A DNA stretch of 64,000 bases from an uncultured Candidatus Nitrosopumilus sp. GTDB lineage: Archaea > Thermoproteota > Nitrososphaeria > Nitrososphaerales > Nitrosopumilaceae. Location of the stretch: assembly GCA_905616385.1 (NCBI GenBank), contig CAJQSS010000004.1:40185-104184 (forward strand), written 5' to 3'. The notes below the pieces were generated by a model, which did not search any database, was not told the DNA's origin, and saw only the letters and a program-made list of their open reading frames with translations. Both the position numbers and the translations under genes were made by a program. Positions within the stretch are counted from its first letter, which is position 1. Every line of letters starts with the position of its first letter. Below, piece by piece: positions 9,767 through 59,246 of the stretch.

Positions 9767-11034
9767 TGAAAATCCATAAAGTAACAAATATTGAACAATT
9801 TGTTGCAAAAATCCTTCCAAAGCAGGCTCAAAATAACAAGTCTATTGTTGAATCTATTTTAAAAAATGTTCAAAAAAATGGTGATTCTGCAGTAAAAAAA
9901 TATGAAAAAAAATTTACTGGTGCTAGTCTTTCTACTTTACGTATTTCTAAAGCAGAAATTAAAAATGCATATTCCAAAGTTTCAAAAAATGAAATTATTG
10001 CATTACGTTTAGCAAAAACTAGAGTTGAAAAAACAGAATCTACTATTAAAAATATTTTTAAGGATAAAAAAATTAATCATGATGGTATACAAATATTAAA
10101 AAAATTCATACCAATTCAAAGTACTGGATGCTATATTCCTGGTGGTTTGGCAAGATATCCAAGTTCTGTAATCATGTCTGTTGTTCCTGCAAAAATTGCT
10201 GGTGTAAAACGAATAGTAGTTGTATCTCCACCAAATTCTAATGGTAAAATTGATCCATTAACAATTGTAGCTGCCGATATTTGTGGTGCTACTGAGATCT
10301 ATAAAACTGGGGGCGTACAAGCAATTGGTGCATTATCTTACGGTACTAAATCCATTTCAAGAGTTGATAAAATTGTTGGACCTGGTGGTGCATTTGTTAC
10401 TTTGGCAAAATCATTAGTTAGTGATAATACTGGAATCGACATGCTTGCTGGACCTACCGAATTAGGAATTATTGCAGATAATTCTGCCAATCCTGAGTTT
10501 CTAGCACTTGATTTAATTTCTCAAGCAGAACATAGTAGTGATACCTTTTGTTATCTAATTACAAATTCAGAAAATATTGCAAAACTTGTTAATGACATAA
10601 TTTCAAAATTATTACCAACAATTCAAAGAAGAGATTTAGTTAAATCAAGTTTATCAAAAAATGGATTTATTGCAGTATGTAAAAATAATTCTGATATGAT
10701 AAATTTAGCAAATTCTCTTGCCCCTGAACACTTACAAATCATGACCAAAAATCCAAAATCAATCTCTTCAAAAATAACTACATCTGGACTAGTTTTACTT
10801 GGTAATTATTCTCCATCATCTGCTAGTGACTATATTTTGGGCTCAAATCATATCCTTCCTACAAATGGATTTGGAAAAATTCGGGGCTCACTATCTGTTA
10901 TGGATTTTATAAAAATAAACACTGAAGTTTTAGCCTCTAAATCTTCTTTATCTAAAATTTCAAAACATCTTGATACATTAACTACATCTGAAGGATTACC
11001 AAATCATTATGAAGCAGTTAGAGGTAGGCTGTAA
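9766..11034 (+). CDS. hisD: Histidinol dehydrogenase
   Basis: Catalyses the last two oxidations, L-histidinol to histidine, with NAD and zinc. Motifs typical of the family are visible: STGCYIPGGLARYPSSVIMS, the KTGGVQAIGALSYGT block, KIVGPGGAFVTLAK, DMLAGPTELGIIAD and SQAEHSSDTFCYL (zinc and catalytic region), then LAPEHLQIMTKNP and the late SASDYILGSNHILPTNG. Length of about 422 residues is standard. The ATG at 9766 (TGATG overlap with hisG) is preferred to the TTG three bases upstream. Confidence 0.95.
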   Translation: MKIHKVTNIEQFVAKILPKQAQNNKSIVESILKNVQKNGDSAVKKYEKKFTGASLSTLRISKAEIKNAYSKVSKNEIIALRLAKTRVEKTESTIKNIFKDKKINHDGIQILKKFIPIQSTGCYIPGGLARYPSSVIMSVVPAKIAGVKRIVVVSPPNSNGKIDPLTIVAADICGATEIYKTGGVQAIGALSYGTKSISRVDKIVGPGGAFVTLAKSLVSDNTGIDMLAGPTELGIIADNSANPEFLALDLISQAEHSSDTFCYLITNSENIAKLVNDIISKLLPTIQRRDLVKSSLSKNGFIAVCKNNSDMINLANSLAPEHLQIMTKNPKSISSKITTSGLVLLGNYSPSSASDYILGSNHILPTNGFGKIRGSLSVMDFIKINTEVLASKSSLSKISKHLDTLTTSEGLPNHYEAVRGRL

Positions 11035-12104
11035 TGAAAAAAAATTGGTTTGATTCAAAAGTTAAAGAATTTTCTTCCATTGGTGGATATCAAAAGCCTC
11101 AATTAAATGAAAATTCTCTTAAATTAGATTCAAATGAAAATTATGTTCTTTCTAAACAATTTCAAAATGATATTGTATCTGCAGCTAGAAAAAATTCTGA
11201 TGTTAGAGAATACCCACTTGGTGGAGTTGAAAGATTAATTCAAATAATTTCTAAATTTGTTAAAATCCCTGTATCCATGATTGGTATTGGAAATGGTTCT
11301 GATCAAATTTTAGATTTGATTTTATCTAATTTTGCATCAAATCAAACTAAAGTTCTTACATCAAATCCTACTTTTAGTTTTTTTGAGGAGAGATGTAAAT
11401 TATATTCAATTCCATTAATTGCAATTCCATTTACAGATGATATGAGATTAGATATTAAACAATTTATTAAAGAATCAAAAAATGCAGATATTTTATATCT
11501 TGATTCACCAAATAATCCTACTGGATTTCAATTTTCAAAAATAGACTTACAAAAACTAATCAAATCTTTTGATGGTTTGATAATTATTGATGAAGCTTAT
11601 GGTGAATTTTCTGATTATTCTCTTTCTAGTCTTGTAAAAACACAAAGTAATCTAATTGTAGTTAGAACTTTATCAAAATCATTTGGAATGGCAGGTCTTC
11701 GTTTAGGTTATTTTGTTGCAAATAAAAAATTTACAGATGCATTTCTTAATGTTTTACAATACCCGTATCCTCTAAGTACCATTACTATTGAATCTGGAAT
11801 TTTAGCCTTAGAAAAAGTCAATTTAATGGAAAATGCAACAAAAATAATTAAAATTGAAAGACAAAGAATTATTGAAACATTAAAAAAATTTGATGCTTTT
11901 GACGTCTTTGATTCCAAGGCTAATTTTGTATTATTTGACGCTCATAGCTCTTACAAACGAGTATATTCGGCACTTACAGAACAAGGAATCTCAATTAGAA
12001 AATTGGGCAAGATAGGAAATCATGAAGGATGTCTTAGGGTAACAATTGGAACAAAAGAAATGAATTCAAAATTTTTACTGGCTATTCGTGATCTATTAGG
12101 ATGA
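11034..12104 (+). CDS. hisC: Histidinol-phosphate aminotransferase
   Basis: PLP-dependent fold-type I aminotransferase that converts imidazole-acetol phosphate to histidinol phosphate. Diagnostic blocks are LDSNENYVLS near the start, GIGNGSDQILDLI, LYLDSPNNPTGFQFS, the aspartate loop IIDEAYGEFSD, and the Schiff-base lysine in VRTLSKSFGMAGLRLGY. The arginine near the C-terminus (GCLRVTIGTKEMN) would bind the substrate carboxylate or phosphate. 356 residues is a normal length. The gene overlaps hisD by one base (TAATG) and the downstream HAD gene by four (ATGA), so translation is probably coupled. Confidence 0.95.
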   Translation: MKKNWFDSKVKEFSSIGGYQKPQLNENSLKLDSNENYVLSKQFQNDIVSAARKNSDVREYPLGGVERLIQIISKFVKIPVSMIGIGNGSDQILDLILSNFASNQTKVLTSNPTFSFFEERCKLYSIPLIAIPFTDDMRLDIKQFIKESKNADILYLDSPNNPTGFQFSKIDLQKLIKSFDGLIIIDEAYGEFSDYSLSSLVKTQSNLIVVRTLSKSFGMAGLRLGYFVANKKFTDAFLNVLQYPYPLSTITIESGILALEKVNLMENATKIIKIERQRIIETLKKFDAFDVFDSKANFVLFDAHSSYKRVYSALTEQGISIRKLGKIGNHEGCLRVTIGTKEMNSKFLLAIRDLLG

Positions 12105-19531: not shown

Positions 19532-22500
19532 ATGAATAACGAAATAGGACGTAAATTAACTAGTCTTACGCTAATGACAATAATGTTAGCTGGTGGTATG
19601 GTTATTGCCGCACCTTCAATGGTGCCAGAAGCCGCAGCCGCTGGTCAACTTTATGTCTCCGCAGAAAACGCACAATTCGGAAACCTCTTTGGAGGTGGTT
19701 CAGTTGTTGAAGTAATTGTAAAAGATCCAAACAGAGCAGATACAGATGTAGCAGAAGCCGAACCAACTGTCTACGTAGATAACAACACACTACGTATGGC
19801 ACAAGGTGTCGATGGTTATTGGTACGCATACATTGGAGCCTATGGCTACATTGACCAAAGTGGTACAGAAGACTACGATAGTACAAACAACAATTTGGAC
19901 TATGGGTATGAAGCTTCTGATACTGTAACACCATGGAAAGCCACATTTATCGGACAACACCATGCAGGTACTGCAAGTGGTGCAGGAGCCGGTTTAGGCC
20001 AAGCATTAGGAGCCACGACATCAACTGGCGCTTCTACTACTTTGTTAGGTGCTGCTGCTGGAGTTATTACAAATCCGCCAACGTTATCAGATTACAACAG
20101 CACCAACAATGTTGGTGGTGATCCGGTAACGATGAACGCAGATCAATCTTCAACTGTAGGTCAAATCGGTATTAATAATACCGAATGGCCTTTCATACAA
20201 CTGTATGACTTCACACAAGGAGCTTTCGATATTGTACTTTCACAAGCCGGACAAGATGAAGTAGTCACATTAGACTATGATTCTACAGGATTAGATGGCT
20301 TTGCAGGAATTGAAGCAGATAGATTATCAGCAACCCAAGGTTCTGATGTCCATCTAACAATTTCTGATCAAGCCTTGAACATCGACCCAACCAATGAAGA
20401 CGTTGTTGTCTTCCTTGTAACTGGTACTCAAACCATGAGTTTTACTAATGGTACAGCACCAAATACAACTACAGAAGGCCTTGCACAAAATGTAGAAACT
20501 GGCGATAAAGGTTTCTATCAAGCAGAAACAATGGGCTTTGGTGATAACGGAGTTTTGAAAATTACTTACGACGCCAATGGAGTTGGAACAAACGTATTTA
20601 CAGATACAGTCACAGCTGACGACGCTTACAACGACAATTACCTTGTCTTCTTTGAAGGTGGCGACAGCACTGGTGTATTTTCAAATACCGATGATAATTC
20701 AGAATCTAATCTAGAAGTCAACTCAGCAGCACTAAGAGGAACTACTGCAACTATCGATTATAACGATAGTGGAGTATCATTCGTTGTATCAAATGACTTT
20801 GGTACACTCGATATGGATGAAGCCTCTGTTGGTGATGAGTGGAATTCCGGTGAAAGTCTAGCAGTAACACTTGTAGATCAAGACTTAAATAAAAACACAT
20901 TATCCGACGAAAGCATGACACTAACAACACACCAAACGTTAATTCCATCGTTGCAGATAGGTTCTCCAATTACATTGGAAACCACTTCAACATTTGAACA
21001 AGCAACAATGACCTGTGGTACATTTAACAAAATTTGTACTATAGCCTCTGTACCAGCTGGGGATCTATATGATAACCACGCTGGAACTGTTCAATTAACG
21101 TTGCCAGATACTGTAGCAGACTTTAGAGCAATCTCTGATGGCGCATCATTTGTTTACTTAAACTTTGATTTGTCAGAAGTAGCCACCTCACTTGGAACTA
21201 TAATTCTAACTGACGGTGACACTCTATTGACTGTCGCAGCAGTAAACTCTGCAAATTTGGGATTTGTCCAATTAGGTGCAATTAGCGCCGTTGGTACAGC
21301 AGGTATCACAGAAACTGCCAACCTAGCAATCAATTTCACAGAAACTGATACTACGCTAGCAACAGTTGACGATTTCTTGTATGCTGATATCTTCACCTTT
21401 GGTGATAGAGTCAACAATGCAATGTATCGTTTCCTCTTAGAGGAATCTGATGATAACACTGCATCTTTCGAAGGTGATGTTGAATTTGTTATGCTCAACC
21501 AAATCAATAATGATTTGGCTGGTACATACAGCGGCATTACAGCAACATCTGATAGTATCACCATCATTGTCCATGAGGACTTAACTGATGAGGATTCACC
21601 AAGAATCAATTATTTGGATCTTGGATCAGATGGTGTATCAACTCAAATTGCTGATCAAGTAGCAGCTCCATCACACAGTGGTGTAGTTACATTTGATTCA
21701 GCCAATTACAAAACAGCTGATACAGTAACTGTAACGATTGACGATCAGGATTTGAATACCGATAGTTCATTACTTGATGTATACATTACATCACAAAGTG
21801 ATCATGTCGGTGAGAATGCTGCCTCTTCATCCGCTTATGTAATGGATATAACTTTCAATGATGTTCTATGGCAAGATGGTTTGGATCAAGTCGGTACTGC
21901 CGGCGTTCCTGACGATGGCTTGCGTCACTCTGGCTTTACATTAGTAGAGACAGGTGTTGATTCAGGTATCTTCACAGGTTCCTTCCAAGTGCCATCAACT
22001 TACTATGGTAACAACGCAACACAAACAACAACAGGAACAGATATCGAGGTCAACTACAACGACCATCGTGATGCTTCTGGTGAAACCATAGAAGTTGGTG
22101 CCGGTGCAAGCATTAATGCTAACACTGGTTCTGTATCATTTGATAGAAATGTATATCCTGTACCATGGGGTAATGAAACAGACGGTGAGCGATTCTTATT
22201 GCACGGAACTGCAGTAGAACCAGCAACCACCGCTGCATTGAGTCTTGCTCAAGGTAATGTAACAGTACACATCAGTATTACTGATGCTGATTACGATGTC
22301 TCCGCATTTGGTGAAGACAGCATCTCAGATACAACAGTCACTCTCAACATTGAGAGAGGCTCTGTAGAGAAGCTAGTCGCCACATTCGGAAACACTGCTA
22401 ATCCAATTGTCGAAACATCTCCAACATCTGGTGTGTTTGAGTATGACGCAACTGTAGGATTTAGATCTGGACCAACTACAAACTGTCCAGCTATATTCAC

Positions 22501-24139
22501 AGATAATTGTGTCTTACAAGGTGATATTCTCACTGTAACATACAATGATATCAAAGATGCTTCAGGACAAGCACAAGCTGTTACTGATTCTGCAACTTTC
22601 GACCTTAGAAACGGTGTATTACAAGCCGATAAATCAGTCTACTTAATTGGTTCAGATATGATCTTAACCTTAATTGAGCCAGACTTCGATCGTGATAACG
22701 ATGGAGCTGAATCCTACACACTCGATTTGATCGAGTGGGACTCTGATGCTGCAGAAACCACTATGGGTACCTATGGTCTCACTGGTGCAAATGCAGCATT
22801 TGATCCTGAGCCTTCAATGCTCAGAGAAACAGGTGACTCTACTGGAATCTTCCAGGTAGTCATTGAAATCCCTGATACGTTGAATAGTGCATTATTGGAT
22901 AGAGGTGAAAAAATCGACTTGGAATATGTTGACTGGGGTCCAGCAGGTGCTGACTATGTTGGACAAGAGAATGAAGATATAGGCGTAACTGTCTATACTT
23001 CTAACTTTGGTGCAACTATAGAACTCGATCAAAAAGTATACACATGGACTGACTTAGTCTACATCACAATTGTAGCTCCTGACCATAACTTCGACAGTAA
23101 TTTAGTTGATGAAATTGGCTCTGGTACTGGTGACCCAATAAAGGTCGCTACCAGAGGTAACGAATTAAACAACTACAAACTCGTTGAATCAGGTGCTGAT
23201 ACAGGTATTTTCATCGGTGAGGTAACTCTCGGTGGATTCCTACACGATGCAGATGGAGACAAGACAACCGGTGATGTAAACGGTATGGATATCACAGCAG
23301 TAGCTAATGGAGCAGCAGGACTCGGTCCAACTTCAGGTAGTATTGCAACAACTGACAATGATGGACTAACTGTCTCCTTTGAATTCTCAGAGGATGAAAC
23401 AGTTGTAGGTTCAGCATTAATCAGATGGAATATAGGTGAGATCCAATGGCTCGAGAGCAGTTACCCAGCAAGCGGAACAGGTGTGATTAGAATAATTGAC
23501 GCAGATATGAACTTAAATCCAGCAGCAATCGACAACTTTAATGTTGACGCTTGGTCTGACTCCGACGCCGGAGGTATTGACCTTACTGTAACTGAAACTA
23601 ATGAGGCAACTGGAATTTTCGAGGGCACAGTATTCTTTACTACTGTCAACGATTCTTCCGGTCATAGACTCAGAGTAGCAGAAGGTGACACAGTCACCGC
23701 AGAATACGAGGACAATACATTACCTGATCCATATACTACTGCAGATGAACTTGATATTACAGCCACTACACTAATCGGTACTGTTGTACCACCTCTCGAG
23801 AGAGCACCAGCTGCTAACTTGAGAATCGTTGATGCATTCGGTAACAGCTTAAACGCTGTTAGCGTAGATCAACAAGTACAACTAACTGCTGACTTAGCAA
23901 ATGGTCAAGATAAAGAGCAATCATTCGCATACTTAGTACAAATTCAGGATGGTGACGGTGTAACAGTCTCACTCGCATGGATTACAGGTTCACTATCTAG
24001 TGGTCAATCATTCAGCCCAGCATTATCATGGATTCCAACTGAAGGCGGTAGCTACACAGCAACTGCATTCGTATGGGAATCAGTAGATAATCCAACGGCA
24101 TTATCACCACCAGTTAGTACAACAATAAGTGTACAGTAA
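19532..24139 (+). CDS. slaA: Major S-layer protein (Thaumarchaeota SlaA type)
   Basis: A 1535-residue secreted protein, the likely main wall component. The signal peptide is residues 1-36 (LMTIMLAGGMVIAAPSMV then PEAAAAG) and the mature start is near QLYVSAENAQFG. The body consists of repeated beta-sandwich units. A DxDxN-type motif recurs (ISDQALNID, LVDQDLNKN, IDDQDLNTD, ITDADYDVS, IEPDFDRDN, IDADMNLNP), paired with a later E-S/T-G-x-x-T/S-G-I-F motif (ETGVDSGIFTG, ETGDSTGIFQ, ESGADTGIFIG, ETNEATGIFEG). It is strongly acidic and has almost no lysine-rich stretches or C-terminal membrane segment. Codon choice is visibly different from neighbours (many GAC, AAC and TAC codons), as expected of a very highly expressed gene. 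It is flanked downstream by an anchored surface protein and a subtilase. Confidence 0.88.
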   Translation: MNNEIGRKLTSLTLMTIMLAGGMVIAAPSMVPEAAAAGQLYVSAENAQFGNLFGGGSVVEVIVKDPNRADTDVAEAEPTVYVDNNTLRMAQGVDGYWYAYIGAYGYIDQSGTEDYDSTNNNLDYGYEASDTVTPWKATFIGQHHAGTASGAGAGLGQALGATTSTGASTTLLGAAAGVITNPPTLSDYNSTNNVGGDPVTMNADQSSTVGQIGINNTEWPFIQLYDFTQGAFDIVLSQAGQDEVVTLDYDSTGLDGFAGIEADRLSATQGSDVHLTISDQALNIDPTNEDVVVFLVTGTQTMSFTNGTAPNTTTEGLAQNVETGDKGFYQAETMGFGDNGVLKITYDANGVGTNVFTDTVTADDAYNDNYLVFFEGGDSTGVFSNTDDNSESNLEVNSAALRGTTATIDYNDSGVSFVVSNDFGTLDMDEASVGDEWNSGESLAVTLVDQDLNKNTLSDESMTLTTHQTLIPSLQIGSPITLETTSTFEQATMTCGTFNKICTIASVPAGDLYDNHAGTVQLTLPDTVADFRAISDGASFVYLNFDLSEVATSLGTIILTDGDTLLTVAAVNSANLGFVQLGAISAVGTAGITETANLAINFTETDTTLATVDDFLYADIFTFGDRVNNAMYRFLLEESDDNTASFEGDVEFVMLNQINNDLAGTYSGITATSDSITIIVHEDLTDEDSPRINYLDLGSDGVSTQIADQVAAPSHSGVVTFDSANYKTADTVTVTIDDQDLNTDSSLLDVYITSQSDHVGENAASSSAYVMDITFNDVLWQDGLDQVGTAGVPDDGLRHSGFTLVETGVDSGIFTGSFQVPSTYYGNNATQTTTGTDIEVNYNDHRDASGETIEVGAGASINANTGSVSFDRNVYPVPWGNETDGERFLLHGTAVEPATTAALSLAQGNVTVHISITDADYDVSAFGEDSISDTTVTLNIERGSVEKLVATFGNTANPIVETSPTSGVFEYDATVGFRSGPTTNCPAIFTDNCVLQGDILTVTYNDIKDASGQAQAVTDSATFDLRNGVLQADKSVYLIGSDMILTLIEPDFDRDNDGAESYTLDLIEWDSDAAETTMGTYGLTGANAAFDPEPSMLRETGDSTGIFQVVIEIPDTLNSALLDRGEKIDLEYVDWGPAGADYVGQENEDIGVTVYTSNFGATIELDQKVYTWTDLVYITIVAPDHNFDSNLVDEIGSGTGDPIKVATRGNELNNYKLVESGADTGIFIGEVTLGGFLHDADGDKTTGDVNGMDITAVANGAAGLGPTSGSIATTDNDGLTVSFEFSEDETVVGSALIRWNIGEIQWLESSYPASGTGVIRIIDADMNLNPAAIDNFNVDAWSDSDAGGIDLTVTETNEATGIFEGTVFFTTVNDSSGHRLRVAEGDTVTAEYEDNTLPDPYTTADELDITATTLIGTVVPPLERAPAANLRIVDAFGNSLNAVSVDQQVQLTADLANGQDKEQSFAYLVQIQDGDGVTVSLAWITGSLSSGQSFSPALSWIPTEGGSYTATAFVWESVDNPTALSPPVSTTISVQ

Positions 24140-55131: not shown

Positions 55132-55743
55132 TTATGCTTCTAGTAATTTTGTCTCTTTATCTGCTGTTCTGATTAGTTTTACTTTCTCAAGACCAACGTG
55201 TCTTACTTTGATAACTCTCTTGAATGCAGCCATGATGTCTGAATTAATTTTACTATAACAGGTAGCTTGAACAAATTGATCAATTGTCATTTCTGGAACT
55301 GTTTTATTAATTACATCTCTTGCAATAATTCTTAGTGCATGTTTTCTTGATGTGTTTAATGGTTTATGTGTTAATGCAATTACTTTAACTCTGAATACAT
55401 ATCCATCTTTTGTTTTAATATCTATGATGAAATTAATTTTAGATGAACCTCTTCTAACTAAACTACGCAAAAATTCTTTTGAATATTCAAATCTCTTGAA
55501 AATTGTTGTTGCAATTTCGCCTTCTATTTTATGTAATTGGAAATATAGTTTGTACTGATGCTGTGAAGGATCTCCTTTAAGAATATCAAATAATGTGATT
55601 TCTATTACTCTACCTAATGCATTTTCATCATCTGTAATTGGTACATATGCGATTGGGATATTGTTAAATGAATCTGGAGCATTAACTGTAACCCAGCGTT
55701 TTTCTCGCCACTTGTCCTTTATTCGACCTTTTCTACGTGCCAA
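55132..55743 (-). CDS. rps3ae: Ribosomal protein eS1 (S3Ae)
   Basis: Small-subunit ribosomal protein. The 203-residue sequence begins ARRKGRIKDKWREKRWVTV and has IGRV-like ALGRVIEITLFDILKGD, LRSLVRRGSSKINFIIDI and HALRIIARDVINKT, all eS1 blocks. The basic N-terminus and length fit. It is followed by an RNA-binding-protein gene and preceded by serS on the same strand. Confidence 0.95.
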   Translation of the reverse strand: MARRKGRIKDKWREKRWVTVNAPDSFNNIPIAYVPITDDENALGRVIEITLFDILKGDPSQHQYKLYFQLHKIEGEIATTIFKRFEYSKEFLRSLVRRGSSKINFIIDIKTKDGYVFRVKVIALTHKPLNTSRKHALRIIARDVINKTVPEMTIDQFVQATCYSKINSDIMAAFKRVIKVRHVGLEKVKLIRTADKETKLLEA

Positions 55744-55783: not shown

Positions 55784-57049
55784 CTAGATCTCTTTTTGAT
55801 TTCCCATATATCCCTGTAAAACTTGAGGAATTCTAATGTGACCATCTTTTGTTTGAAAATTCTCCATTATAGCTACTAAAACTCTAGTTGTAGCTATTAG
55901 TGTACTGTTCAAAGTATGGATGTACTGAGTATCTTCATTTGTTTTATCTCTGAATCTAATTTTCAATCGTCTTGCTTGATATTCTAAACAATTTGAACAA
56001 GATACAATTTCTCTATATGCATTCTGTCCAGCCATCCATGCTTCAATATCGTATGTTTTTGCTGAAATTTTTCCAATATCTCCTGTTGATAGTAGCATTA
56101 CTCTGTATGGAATTTCTAATTTTTGATAAAATTCTTCTGCAACTGCTAACATTTTTTCATGTTCTTTCCAAGAATCTTCTGGTTTTGAAAAAACAAATTG
56201 TTCAATTTTATCAAATTGATGTACTCTGAAAATTCCTTTTTGATCTCGTCCATGTGCTCCAGCCTCTTTTCTGAAGCATGGACTAATTCCTGCATATTTC
56301 ATTGGAATTTCTTTCCCTTCAATAATTTCTTTTGAATGCATTGCAGCCATTGCATGTTCTGATGTTCCAATCATATAGAGATCTTCTTCTTGAATTTTGT
56401 AAATAACTTCTTCAAAATCTTCGGCAATTACTGCCCCTTCCATTGATTCTCGATTAATCATGTATGGTGGTTGAATCAGAGAATATCCTTTTTCTGCAAG
56501 AAAATCTAATCCAAAATGAATCAATGCTTGATTTAATCTTACTAGATCATTTTTTAGATAATAAAATCTGGCACCTGCTACTTTTGCAGCTCTTTCTAAA
56601 TCTACTAAATTCAAATCTTCTGAAATATCAATATGATCTTTTATTTTAAAATCAAATTCTGGAATATTCCCCCATTTTTTTATTTCTATATTTGCACTAT
56701 CATCTACTCCTATTGGAACTGATTCATGAACTAGATTTGGAATTGTTGATGCTAATTTTAAATATTCACTTTCAATATTTTCTTGTTCTGATTCTGATTC
56801 TGTTATTTCATTTGAAATATTTTTCATTTCTGCTAAAATTGAAGATATATCATCACCGCCTTTCTTTTTTTCTGATATTATGATTGCAACTTGATTTTTC
56901 TTTTTTCTTAATTCATCCGTTTTAATTATAAACTCTCGTCTTTTTTTATCTAATTCAATTAACCCATCTAGATCAAATTCCACTGCTCTGGATTTGAGCA
57001 TACTTCTGATGATTTCTGGGTTCTCTTTGATTAGTTTAGGATCTAACAT
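55784..57049 (-). CDS. serS: Seryl-tRNA synthetase
   Basis: Class II synthetase charging tRNA-Ser. The 421-residue protein has the N-terminal coiled-coil arm (about residues 30-105, LDKKRREFIIKTDELRKKK) and class II motifs: motif 2 FRKEAGAHGRDQKGIFRVHQF and motif 3 in TLNSTLIATTRVLVAIMENFQ. It is the common (bacterial/eukaryotic-like) form, not the rare methanogen SerRS. ATG 57049 overlaps the pcc1 stop by one base (TAATG), showing coupled translation. Confidence 0.95.
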   Translation of the reverse strand: MLDPKLIKENPEIIRSMLKSRAVEFDLDGLIELDKKRREFIIKTDELRKKKNQVAIIISEKKKGGDDISSILAEMKNISNEITESESEQENIESEYLKLASTIPNLVHESVPIGVDDSANIEIKKWGNIPEFDFKIKDHIDISEDLNLVDLERAAKVAGARFYYLKNDLVRLNQALIHFGLDFLAEKGYSLIQPPYMINRESMEGAVIAEDFEEVIYKIQEEDLYMIGTSEHAMAAMHSKEIIEGKEIPMKYAGISPCFRKEAGAHGRDQKGIFRVHQFDKIEQFVFSKPEDSWKEHEKMLAVAEEFYQKLEIPYRVMLLSTGDIGKISAKTYDIEAWMAGQNAYREIVSCSNCLEYQARRLKIRFRDKTNEDTQYIHTLNSTLIATTRVLVAIMENFQTKDGHIRIPQVLQGYMGNQKEI

Positions 57050-57291
57050 TATTCAATCACCTTTAATGCAACTTGGATATGTTCCAACACTTCATCTATA
57101 GTTCCTACTAACTGTTTCATGTTTTCTTTACTTTCAAAATTAAAAACTAGTTTGTTATCAATATTTTCAACATAAAGACTCAATCCTTTTGGAAAATTTA
57201 CATTATCTGGCTCTAATGCCTTTTTGACAGTTTCTGCCTTTTTCTCAGATATGTTATTGAGAATTACTTGTATTTCGCACGTTAACGACAT
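57049..57291 (-). CDS. pcc1: KEOPS subunit Pcc1
   Basis: Small dimerising subunit of the KEOPS complex that makes t6A in tRNA with Kae1 and Bud32. The 80-residue protein (EIQVILNNISEKKAETVKKA; ALEPDNVNFPKGLSLYVEN; LVGTIDEVLEHIQVALKVI) has the alpha-beta Pcc1 pattern and length. ATG 57291 lies inside the 3' end of the DHH gene (38-base overlap). Its place in a ribosomal operon, 17 kb from kae1 and bud32, shows that KEOPS genes are dispersed here. Cgi121 is not seen in the window. Confidence 0.88.
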   Translation of the reverse strand: MSLTCEIQVILNNISEKKAETVKKALEPDNVNFPKGLSLYVENIDNKLVFNFESKENMKQLVGTIDEVLEHIQVALKVIE

Positions 57292-57913
57292 TTACTTCTA
57301 AATATTTTAAAAATTCGTCCAATTTGTCTTTAGTTATTTTTGCACCTGCTGCCCCATTATGACCTCCTCCAATACCCTCAAATCTTTCAGCACCGTTTCT
57401 CATTAATTCACTGAGATTGATCTCTGATTTACAACTAAAGGATTTCCTTGATGAAAATTTTATTGTATTCTCCTCTCCTCTAGTTCTTAGAATTACAATT
57501 TTTCCTGTATTTTTTGGTGATCCTGCAATTAGTGATGATATTGTCCCTGTCATTGTTTCTGGTACTATGTCTTCTCCATTTACCATTACACAATTTTCAT
57601 TTTCTGAAATTCTCCACCTTTCATTTGATAAGATATTCATGTATTCTTTGATCTTTTTTCTATAATCTGTTAGAATATCTTCTCCTTCGGTTAGAATTTT
57701 ATTTCTGTCCCCCATACATATTGCCATTCCAACTCCTGAACGATTAATTCTTCCACATGAATTAAGCATAGTTGAATATTCTCTGCCGTCTCTTAGGAAA
57801 CTTCTCTTATCTTCTCTTGGAAATGTGTATGTATATCCAATTAATTCTGACATTACTTCTGTAGTATTTTTATCTGAAGAGAATTTAGTTATAGATTCTA
57901 TTACTAATTTTTT
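57254..57913 (-). CDS. DHH nuclease, 3' part (DHHA1 domain), frame -1
   Basis: The second half of a RecJ/GAN-like phosphoesterase. Its longest ATG frame starts at 57853 (MSELIGYTYTFPRED), but the frame stays open upstream through LVIESITKFSSDKNTTEV, joining exactly to the first half at a run of seven A. The DHHA1 domain is clear: SCGRINRSGVGMAICMGD and FEGIGGGHNGAAGAKI (about residues 160-175 of this part). Read together, both parts give about 473 residues, the normal length. The end overlaps pcc1 by 38 bases. Confidence 0.8.
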   Translation of the reverse strand, partial: KKLVIESITKFSSDKNTTEVMSELIGYTYTFPREDKRSFLRDGREYSTMLNSCGRINRSGVGMAICMGDRNKILTEGEDILTDYRKKIKEYMNILSNERWRISENENCVMVNGEDIVPETMTGTISSLIAGSPKNTGKIVILRTRGEENTIKFSSRKSFSCKSEINLSELMRNGAERFEGIGGGHNGAAGAKITKDKLDEFLKYLEVNVVNVRNTSNSQ

Positions 57914-58674
57914 TCCTCTTCATTTAGTTCTGCTGGAACTCTCCATCTACCCTCTTCTTTTAGTTCAATTCCAGATGACTTTAGAATTGATAAACATGTT
58001 TCTTTATTCCATGTTAATCCTTCAATAAATGGCTGTGATGTAAAAGCAAGGGCTTCTGCAAGTGGTCTAGTTTCTCTTCCAACTAATAACAAGTCTAAAT
58101 CTATCTCTACTAGTCCTAATTCTTTAGCAGTATTGGCAATTTCAAAATTTTTACCTGTAAATGATTTTCTTTCTCCTTGATCTTGTCTATCTCCTAATGC
58201 TGAAACTACTGCAATTTCTGACAAATCTGAATTTTTTTCATCAAGTGCCATTGCTGCAAAATATGCCATTCCCCCAGCACAAATTTCTGAACCGCCATCA
58301 ATTCCATATTTCCATGAATTTATGATATTTTGATTATCTTTTTCTTCTTCTGATATTTGATGATGATCTAAAATAACCCAGTTATCCCCTAATGTTTGAT
58401 TTAGATCTTTTCCAAATCCCACTCCCAAATCTGTTACAATGTGAAAATCTCTAGAATCTGTTTTGAACGACTCTACTACATTTTTACTAAATTCTTTTGA
58501 TGTTCTAAGGGTACATCTTGCACCTTCTCTGATCAACGCTTTAGCAATAATACTTCCAGATGTTAATCCATCACAATCAATATGAGTTGTAATTGAAATT
58601 GATTTTTTAGATTTTATACAATCTGAAATTTTATCTTTGAAAAATGATAGTGATTCTTCAAACGCTTTTGTCAT
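57904..58674 (-). CDS. DHH-family phosphoesterase/nuclease, 5' part ended early by a frameshift
   Basis: First half (256 residues) of an archaeal RecJ-like single-stranded-DNA or RNA nuclease of the DHH family, a partner of the CMG replication complex in several archaea (GAN). The metal-binding motifs are THIDCDGLTSG (about residue 31) and the eponymous VILDHHQIS (about 105), with SALGDRQDQGE later. It ends GEEK-N then TAG, immediately after A7 (57914-57908). One more A, or a -1 slip, would continue into the downstream DHHA1 frame. ATG 58674 overlaps the uS15 stop by one base. Confidence 0.85.
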   Translation of the reverse strand: MTKAFEESLSFFKDKISDCIKSKKSISITTHIDCDGLTSGSIIAKALIREGARCTLRTSKEFSKNVVESFKTDSRDFHIVTDLGVGFGKDLNQTLGDNWVILDHHQISEEEKDNQNIINSWKYGIDGGSEICAGGMAYFAAMALDEKNSDLSEIAVVSALGDRQDQGERKSFTGKNFEIANTAKELGLVEIDLDLLLVGRETRPLAEALAFTSQPFIEGLTWNKETCLSILKSSGIELKEEGRWRVPAELNEEEKN

Positions 58675-59123
58675 TACTCTAATTGAGCAACCACAGATTT
58701 ATACTTCCATGTTTTAGGAATTCTCTCAATTCTTTTGTAATATACCGATAATCTGTGAACTTTAGCTTCAATCAATTCTAAAGATCTAACATTTCTGTTA
58801 TCTCCTTTGTTTTCTTTAAGATGTTTTTGAAGACCTACTGCTCTGTTGACAATATTTTCCAAGTCTTCTGGCATATCTGCTTTCAAATCATTTTCTTCTA
58901 GAATTTGATTAATGCCCTTTTTTGTAATTGGTTTGATTAATGGAATTGAATGTTGATCTCTTAATTTGATTCCAATTTGACTAGGAGTCAAACCATCTTT
59001 GGAATATTTTACTACTAATGCTTCTATTTCTGCAGGAGTTAATGTAATCCATGATGGTACACGTAGTGTGGCTGGTCTAATTGAATGTGATTTACCGTGT
59101 CTATGTGTATGCATTCGTCCCAT
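58674..59123 (-). CDS. rps15: Ribosomal protein uS15
   Basis: Small-subunit protein of 149 residues. It begins MGRMHTHRHGKSHSIRPATL, the archaeal/eukaryotic S13-type extension, then PAEIEALVVKYSKDGLTPSQ and the core LKENKGDNRNVRSLELIEAK. ATG 59123 is preferred over the start at 59135 because it gives the canonical MGRMH opening. It heads the minus-strand operon with the DHH gene, pcc1, serS and eS1. Confidence 0.95.
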   Translation of the reverse strand: MGRMHTHRHGKSHSIRPATLRVPSWITLTPAEIEALVVKYSKDGLTPSQIGIKLRDQHSIPLIKPITKKGINQILEENDLKADMPEDLENIVNRAVGLQKHLKENKGDNRNVRSLELIEAKVHRLSVYYKRIERIPKTWKYKSVVAQLE

Positions 59124-59246
59124 GATTTGGCTCAATTAAAAGTAGAATTAAACGTTGCTTTTGCTGATCTCGCAAATAAATCATAATCTTGGCATTTAGA
59201 ATAAAAGTTAAATAAGTCTCTGGCTGGAAAACGACAGGTAAAAGGT

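Follow-up and report, generated by a model that had tools for sequence, protein, structure and literature searches.

On the minus strand of the window (the whole 64,000-nucleotide stretch of Nitrosopumilus DNA analyzed here), a gene with DHH and DHHA1 domains is divided between two reading frames at a run of seven A residues. The locus raises the question of whether this break is a sequence error, a mutation in the cell, a site at which slippage still yields the full-length protein, or the boundary between two genes. A previous sequence-only reading had proposed the first three and had suggested that the gene is RecJ/GAN-like and probably needed. The answer depends on the structure of the gene, on its state in related genomes, and on the general quality of the assembly that contains it.

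Structure and identity of the broken gene

The features of the locus are as follows.

58674-57254, minus strand: RecJ/GAN gene, whole (DHH/DHHA1)
57904..58674, minus strand: first part of RecJ/GAN, with DHH and most of DHH_CID, 256 codons, TAG end (Pfam; ORF)
57908..57914, minus strand: A7 run at which the frame is lost; A8 in the same-species genome RIS_SAG_08 (DNA alignment)
57254..57910, minus strand: second part in the -1 frame, with the rest of DHH_CID and DHHA1 including GGGHNGAAGA (Pfam)
58674..59135, minus strand: ribosomal protein S15, intact, upstream neighbor
57049..57291, minus strand: Pcc1 (KEOPS subunit), intact, downstream neighbor
55784..57049, minus strand: seryl-tRNA synthetase (SerS), intact
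55132..55743, minus strand: ribosomal protein S3Ae, intact

The first open frame ends with ...GAG GAA AAA AAT TAG, the seven A being located just before the TAG. From the A run onward, the -1 frame meets no stop until a TAA at 57254, and joining of the two frames through the run results in a protein of 473 residues with a normal end (junction around NEEEKKLVIESITK). The coordinates, the number of A residues and the total length of 473 residues had all been read correctly. Pfam assigns DHH and DHH_CID to the first part and DHHA1 to the second, in agreement with the earlier proposal that the missing domain is carried in the -1 frame. The break lies within DHH_CID, which spans residues 197-267 of the intact protein, and not in a linker or between domains; residue 256 is the last that the first ORF encodes. 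The first and second parts match the protein of one relative in consecutive order, and the break is therefore beyond chance. No damage is present elsewhere in the gene.

The intact copy in RIS_SAG_08 scores 484.9 bits against the NCBIfam model RecJ_archaeal (NF053576; curated cut-off 360 bits), and the first ORF of the window alone scores 270.3 bits, under that cut-off. The intact copy also matches solved structures of archaeal RecJ/GAN, the best being 5ghr (E 1e-61). DHH, CID and DHHA1 are all present in this copy and are split over two frames in the window. Archaeal RecJ/GAN proteins (NF053576; structures 5ghr, 5x4h) have DHH, DHH_CID and DHHA1 in the same order and share the motifs HIDCDG, DHH and GGGH as well as the S15/Pcc1 neighborhood; the only difference is the one-base break in the assembly of the window. 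The gene order here is S15, RecJ/GAN, Pcc1, then SerS and S3Ae, and the conserved archaeal neighborhood of the RecJ/Cdc45-like gene consists of S15, S3 and Pcc1 (PMC3307487). The same-strand neighbors are intact, as had been noticed, and the RecJ/GAN-like assignment is borne out by the model score and the structure matches. Its domains, motifs and position mark it as an ordinary archaeal RecJ/GAN (Cdc45-like) nuclease gene of a Nitrosopumilus, normally encoded in a single ORF. A member of this family would be expected to bind GINS and to act in the CMG complex. The suggestion that it is probably needed is weaker than originally put, given that a delta-gan strain of Thermococcus kodakarensis is viable (PMC5717133). 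A second archaeal RecJ copy was not found in the window's genome (60% complete), where the search gave just a different DHH protein.

The site in the same species and in relatives

Among named genomes, the best match is RIS_SAG_08 (CAJQRM010000039.1), which belongs to the same species and is 99.9% identical over 17.7 kb. RIS_SAG_08 has A8 where the window has A7, and the rest of the 1421-base gene is identical. Over the 10.7 kb around the gene, the two differ by 16 substitutions and one indel, which is the A; over the whole 17,749-base RIS_SAG_08 contig, compared with the window's genome, 21 substitutions and that one indel alone are found.

Comparison of the homopolymer across relatives, which had been suggested as a check, extends this result. 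Matches to the gene occur in 147 of the 151 Nitrosopumilaceae genomes searched, and in most of them it is a single ORF, full length at about 470-485 codons. Some genomes, many of them incomplete, have just a weak C-terminal-domain match, which probably comes from the other DHH protein, or a gene cut off by the end of a contig. Among about 108 aligned DNA loci, all but the window's own have one more base at the site (40 vs 39) and keep the frame, apart from three distant loci in which 42 bases likewise keep it. The A run is interrupted by G in many relatives. A split into two genes at the break was seen in no relative, either in the 151-genome search or among the about 108 aligned loci. These alignments show that the one-base difference is private to the assembly of the window and that a genome of the same species carries an intact copy.

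Several other observations were made in the course of these comparisons. In an aminotransferase gene (Aminotran_1_2; window 11034-12104, plus strand), RIS_SAG_08 has T8 near 11378 where the window has T7, and here the gene is intact in the window and frameshifted in RIS_SAG_08, a mirror image of the RecJ/GAN case. Identity between the window and RIS_SAG_08 is uneven: it is about 97% at 2.5-12.4 kb, about 94% at 12.6-20.9 kb and 99.8% at 51.5-64 kb, a pattern of the kind that strains exchanging DNA by recombination would produce. Parts of a large ORF of 1535 aa (19532-24139, plus strand) are only 78-79% identical to RIS_SAG_08, with many indels of in-frame size, and the flanking DNA is mostly 94-99% identical; this ORF looks hypervariable and possibly encodes a surface protein. 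A Nitrosopumilus-type RecJ gene is also present, at 84% protein identity, in JAJDDX010000004.1, which is titled as a Phycisphaerae bacterium MAG and is probably a mis-binned contig.

Origin of the missing base

For a census of frameshifts, ORFs from G119, a complete genome, were compared with 723 kb joined from the 751 kb of the window's genome; 743 of these ORFs matched at no less than 60% identity, and 669 were covered over at least 90%. RecJ/GAN is the only convincing frameshift among these roughly 670 conserved genes, the census being blind to frameshifts very close to gene ends. Two further flagged candidates proved not to be genes: one is an ORF running into the start of the 16S rRNA, and the other, on C17, is an ORF that lies opposite small genes on the antisense strand. 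The conserved coding sequence contains 827 A/T runs of at least 7 (655 of 7, 151 of 8, and 21 longer). The assembly is therefore mostly clean and the RecJ/GAN break is an isolated event; a generally error-ridden assembly can be rejected.

The missing A is probably a technical error. One A of an A8 run would have been dropped in the assembly, throwing the frame and exposing the TAG, and the base may have been lost during whole-genome amplification, in assembly at low coverage or through an error in the consensus; the gene in the cell would then most likely be intact and encode one 473-residue protein. The break has the characters of homopolymer frameshift artefacts and private indels in draft SAGs and MAGs, namely the loss or gain of one base in a run of 7-8 A or T and a near-identical genome with the gene intact, and no difference from such cases was seen. 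It is private to one assembly, and the type of site is the one that is also frameshifted in the aminotransferase gene of RIS_SAG_08. The Ross Ice Shelf single-cell workflow, which from the name we infer to be the source of RIS_SAG_08, has a benchmark frequency for amplification plus assembly that averages 3 indels per 100 kb (PMC8748734). The 60% completeness of the window's genome suggests a comparable amplified single-cell draft; if it is one, such an indel is expected. Counting against a technical error, the assembly is otherwise almost free of frameshifts despite its many A/T runs. That the loss is technical rather than mutational is likewise a step that we infer.

Next in likelihood, though unlikely, is that the cell or strain that was sequenced truly lacks the base, giving a private, recent loss-of-function allele that encodes a 256-residue protein without DHHA1. 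In its favor, mutations naturally concentrate in A8 runs, the rest of the assembly is clean, and T. kodakarensis can live without RecJ/GAN. However, nearly all relatives, the same species included, have the gene at full length, and no second archaeal RecJ copy was found in the incomplete genome, so that loss should be costly. An old pseudogene was rejected; apart from the break, the gene is undamaged and identical to the sister copy.

It is very improbable that A7 is real and that the full-length protein is made through -1 ribosomal slippage at A_AAA_AAT or through slippage of RNA polymerase. The heptamer is of the slippery type and nothing interrupts the -1 frame, and in both the A run at the break and the open -1 frame the locus resembles A-run indels that are compensated by transcriptional slippage or ribosomal frameshifting (PMC5009743). 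Unlike those, the allele of the window has no sign outside this assembly and no conservation, since relatives lack the break and often have an interrupted run. A_AAA_AAT occurs in frame 413 times in the conserved coding sequence of the window's genome, where runs of 7 are common in any case, and folding of the 118 bases downstream is no stronger than that of shuffled sequences (z 0.08). Programmed -1 frameshifting was therefore rejected: the aligned loci hold no conserved break or slippery site, a 3' stimulatory RNA structure was not found, and the heptamer is common in frame. Were A7 real and the protein rescued by slippage on the run, this would be a thaumarchaeal case of an indel compensated by homopolymer slippage. 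Of the origins proposed from the sequence, the comparison supports the loss of one base from A8, by error or private mutation, and lends no support to slippage of ribosome or polymerase, which none of the observations requires.

Two real, separately translated genes forming a natural DHH/DHHA1 split can practically be dismissed: two ORFs do exist in the window (58674-57904 and 57853-57254), but the frame of the second encodes conserved residues ahead of its first ATG (57853), the break is inside DHH_CID, and the relatives compared, including the same-species genome, have one gene.

Returning to a probable technical loss of one A, differences of one base in homopolymers between drafts of the same species need to be checked both ways, because the reverse problem affects a different gene of the sister genome. 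In annotation, the locus should be entered as a single RecJ/GAN gene carrying an assembly-level frameshift, and should be taken neither for two genes nor for evidence of recoding or of the loss of a replication factor.
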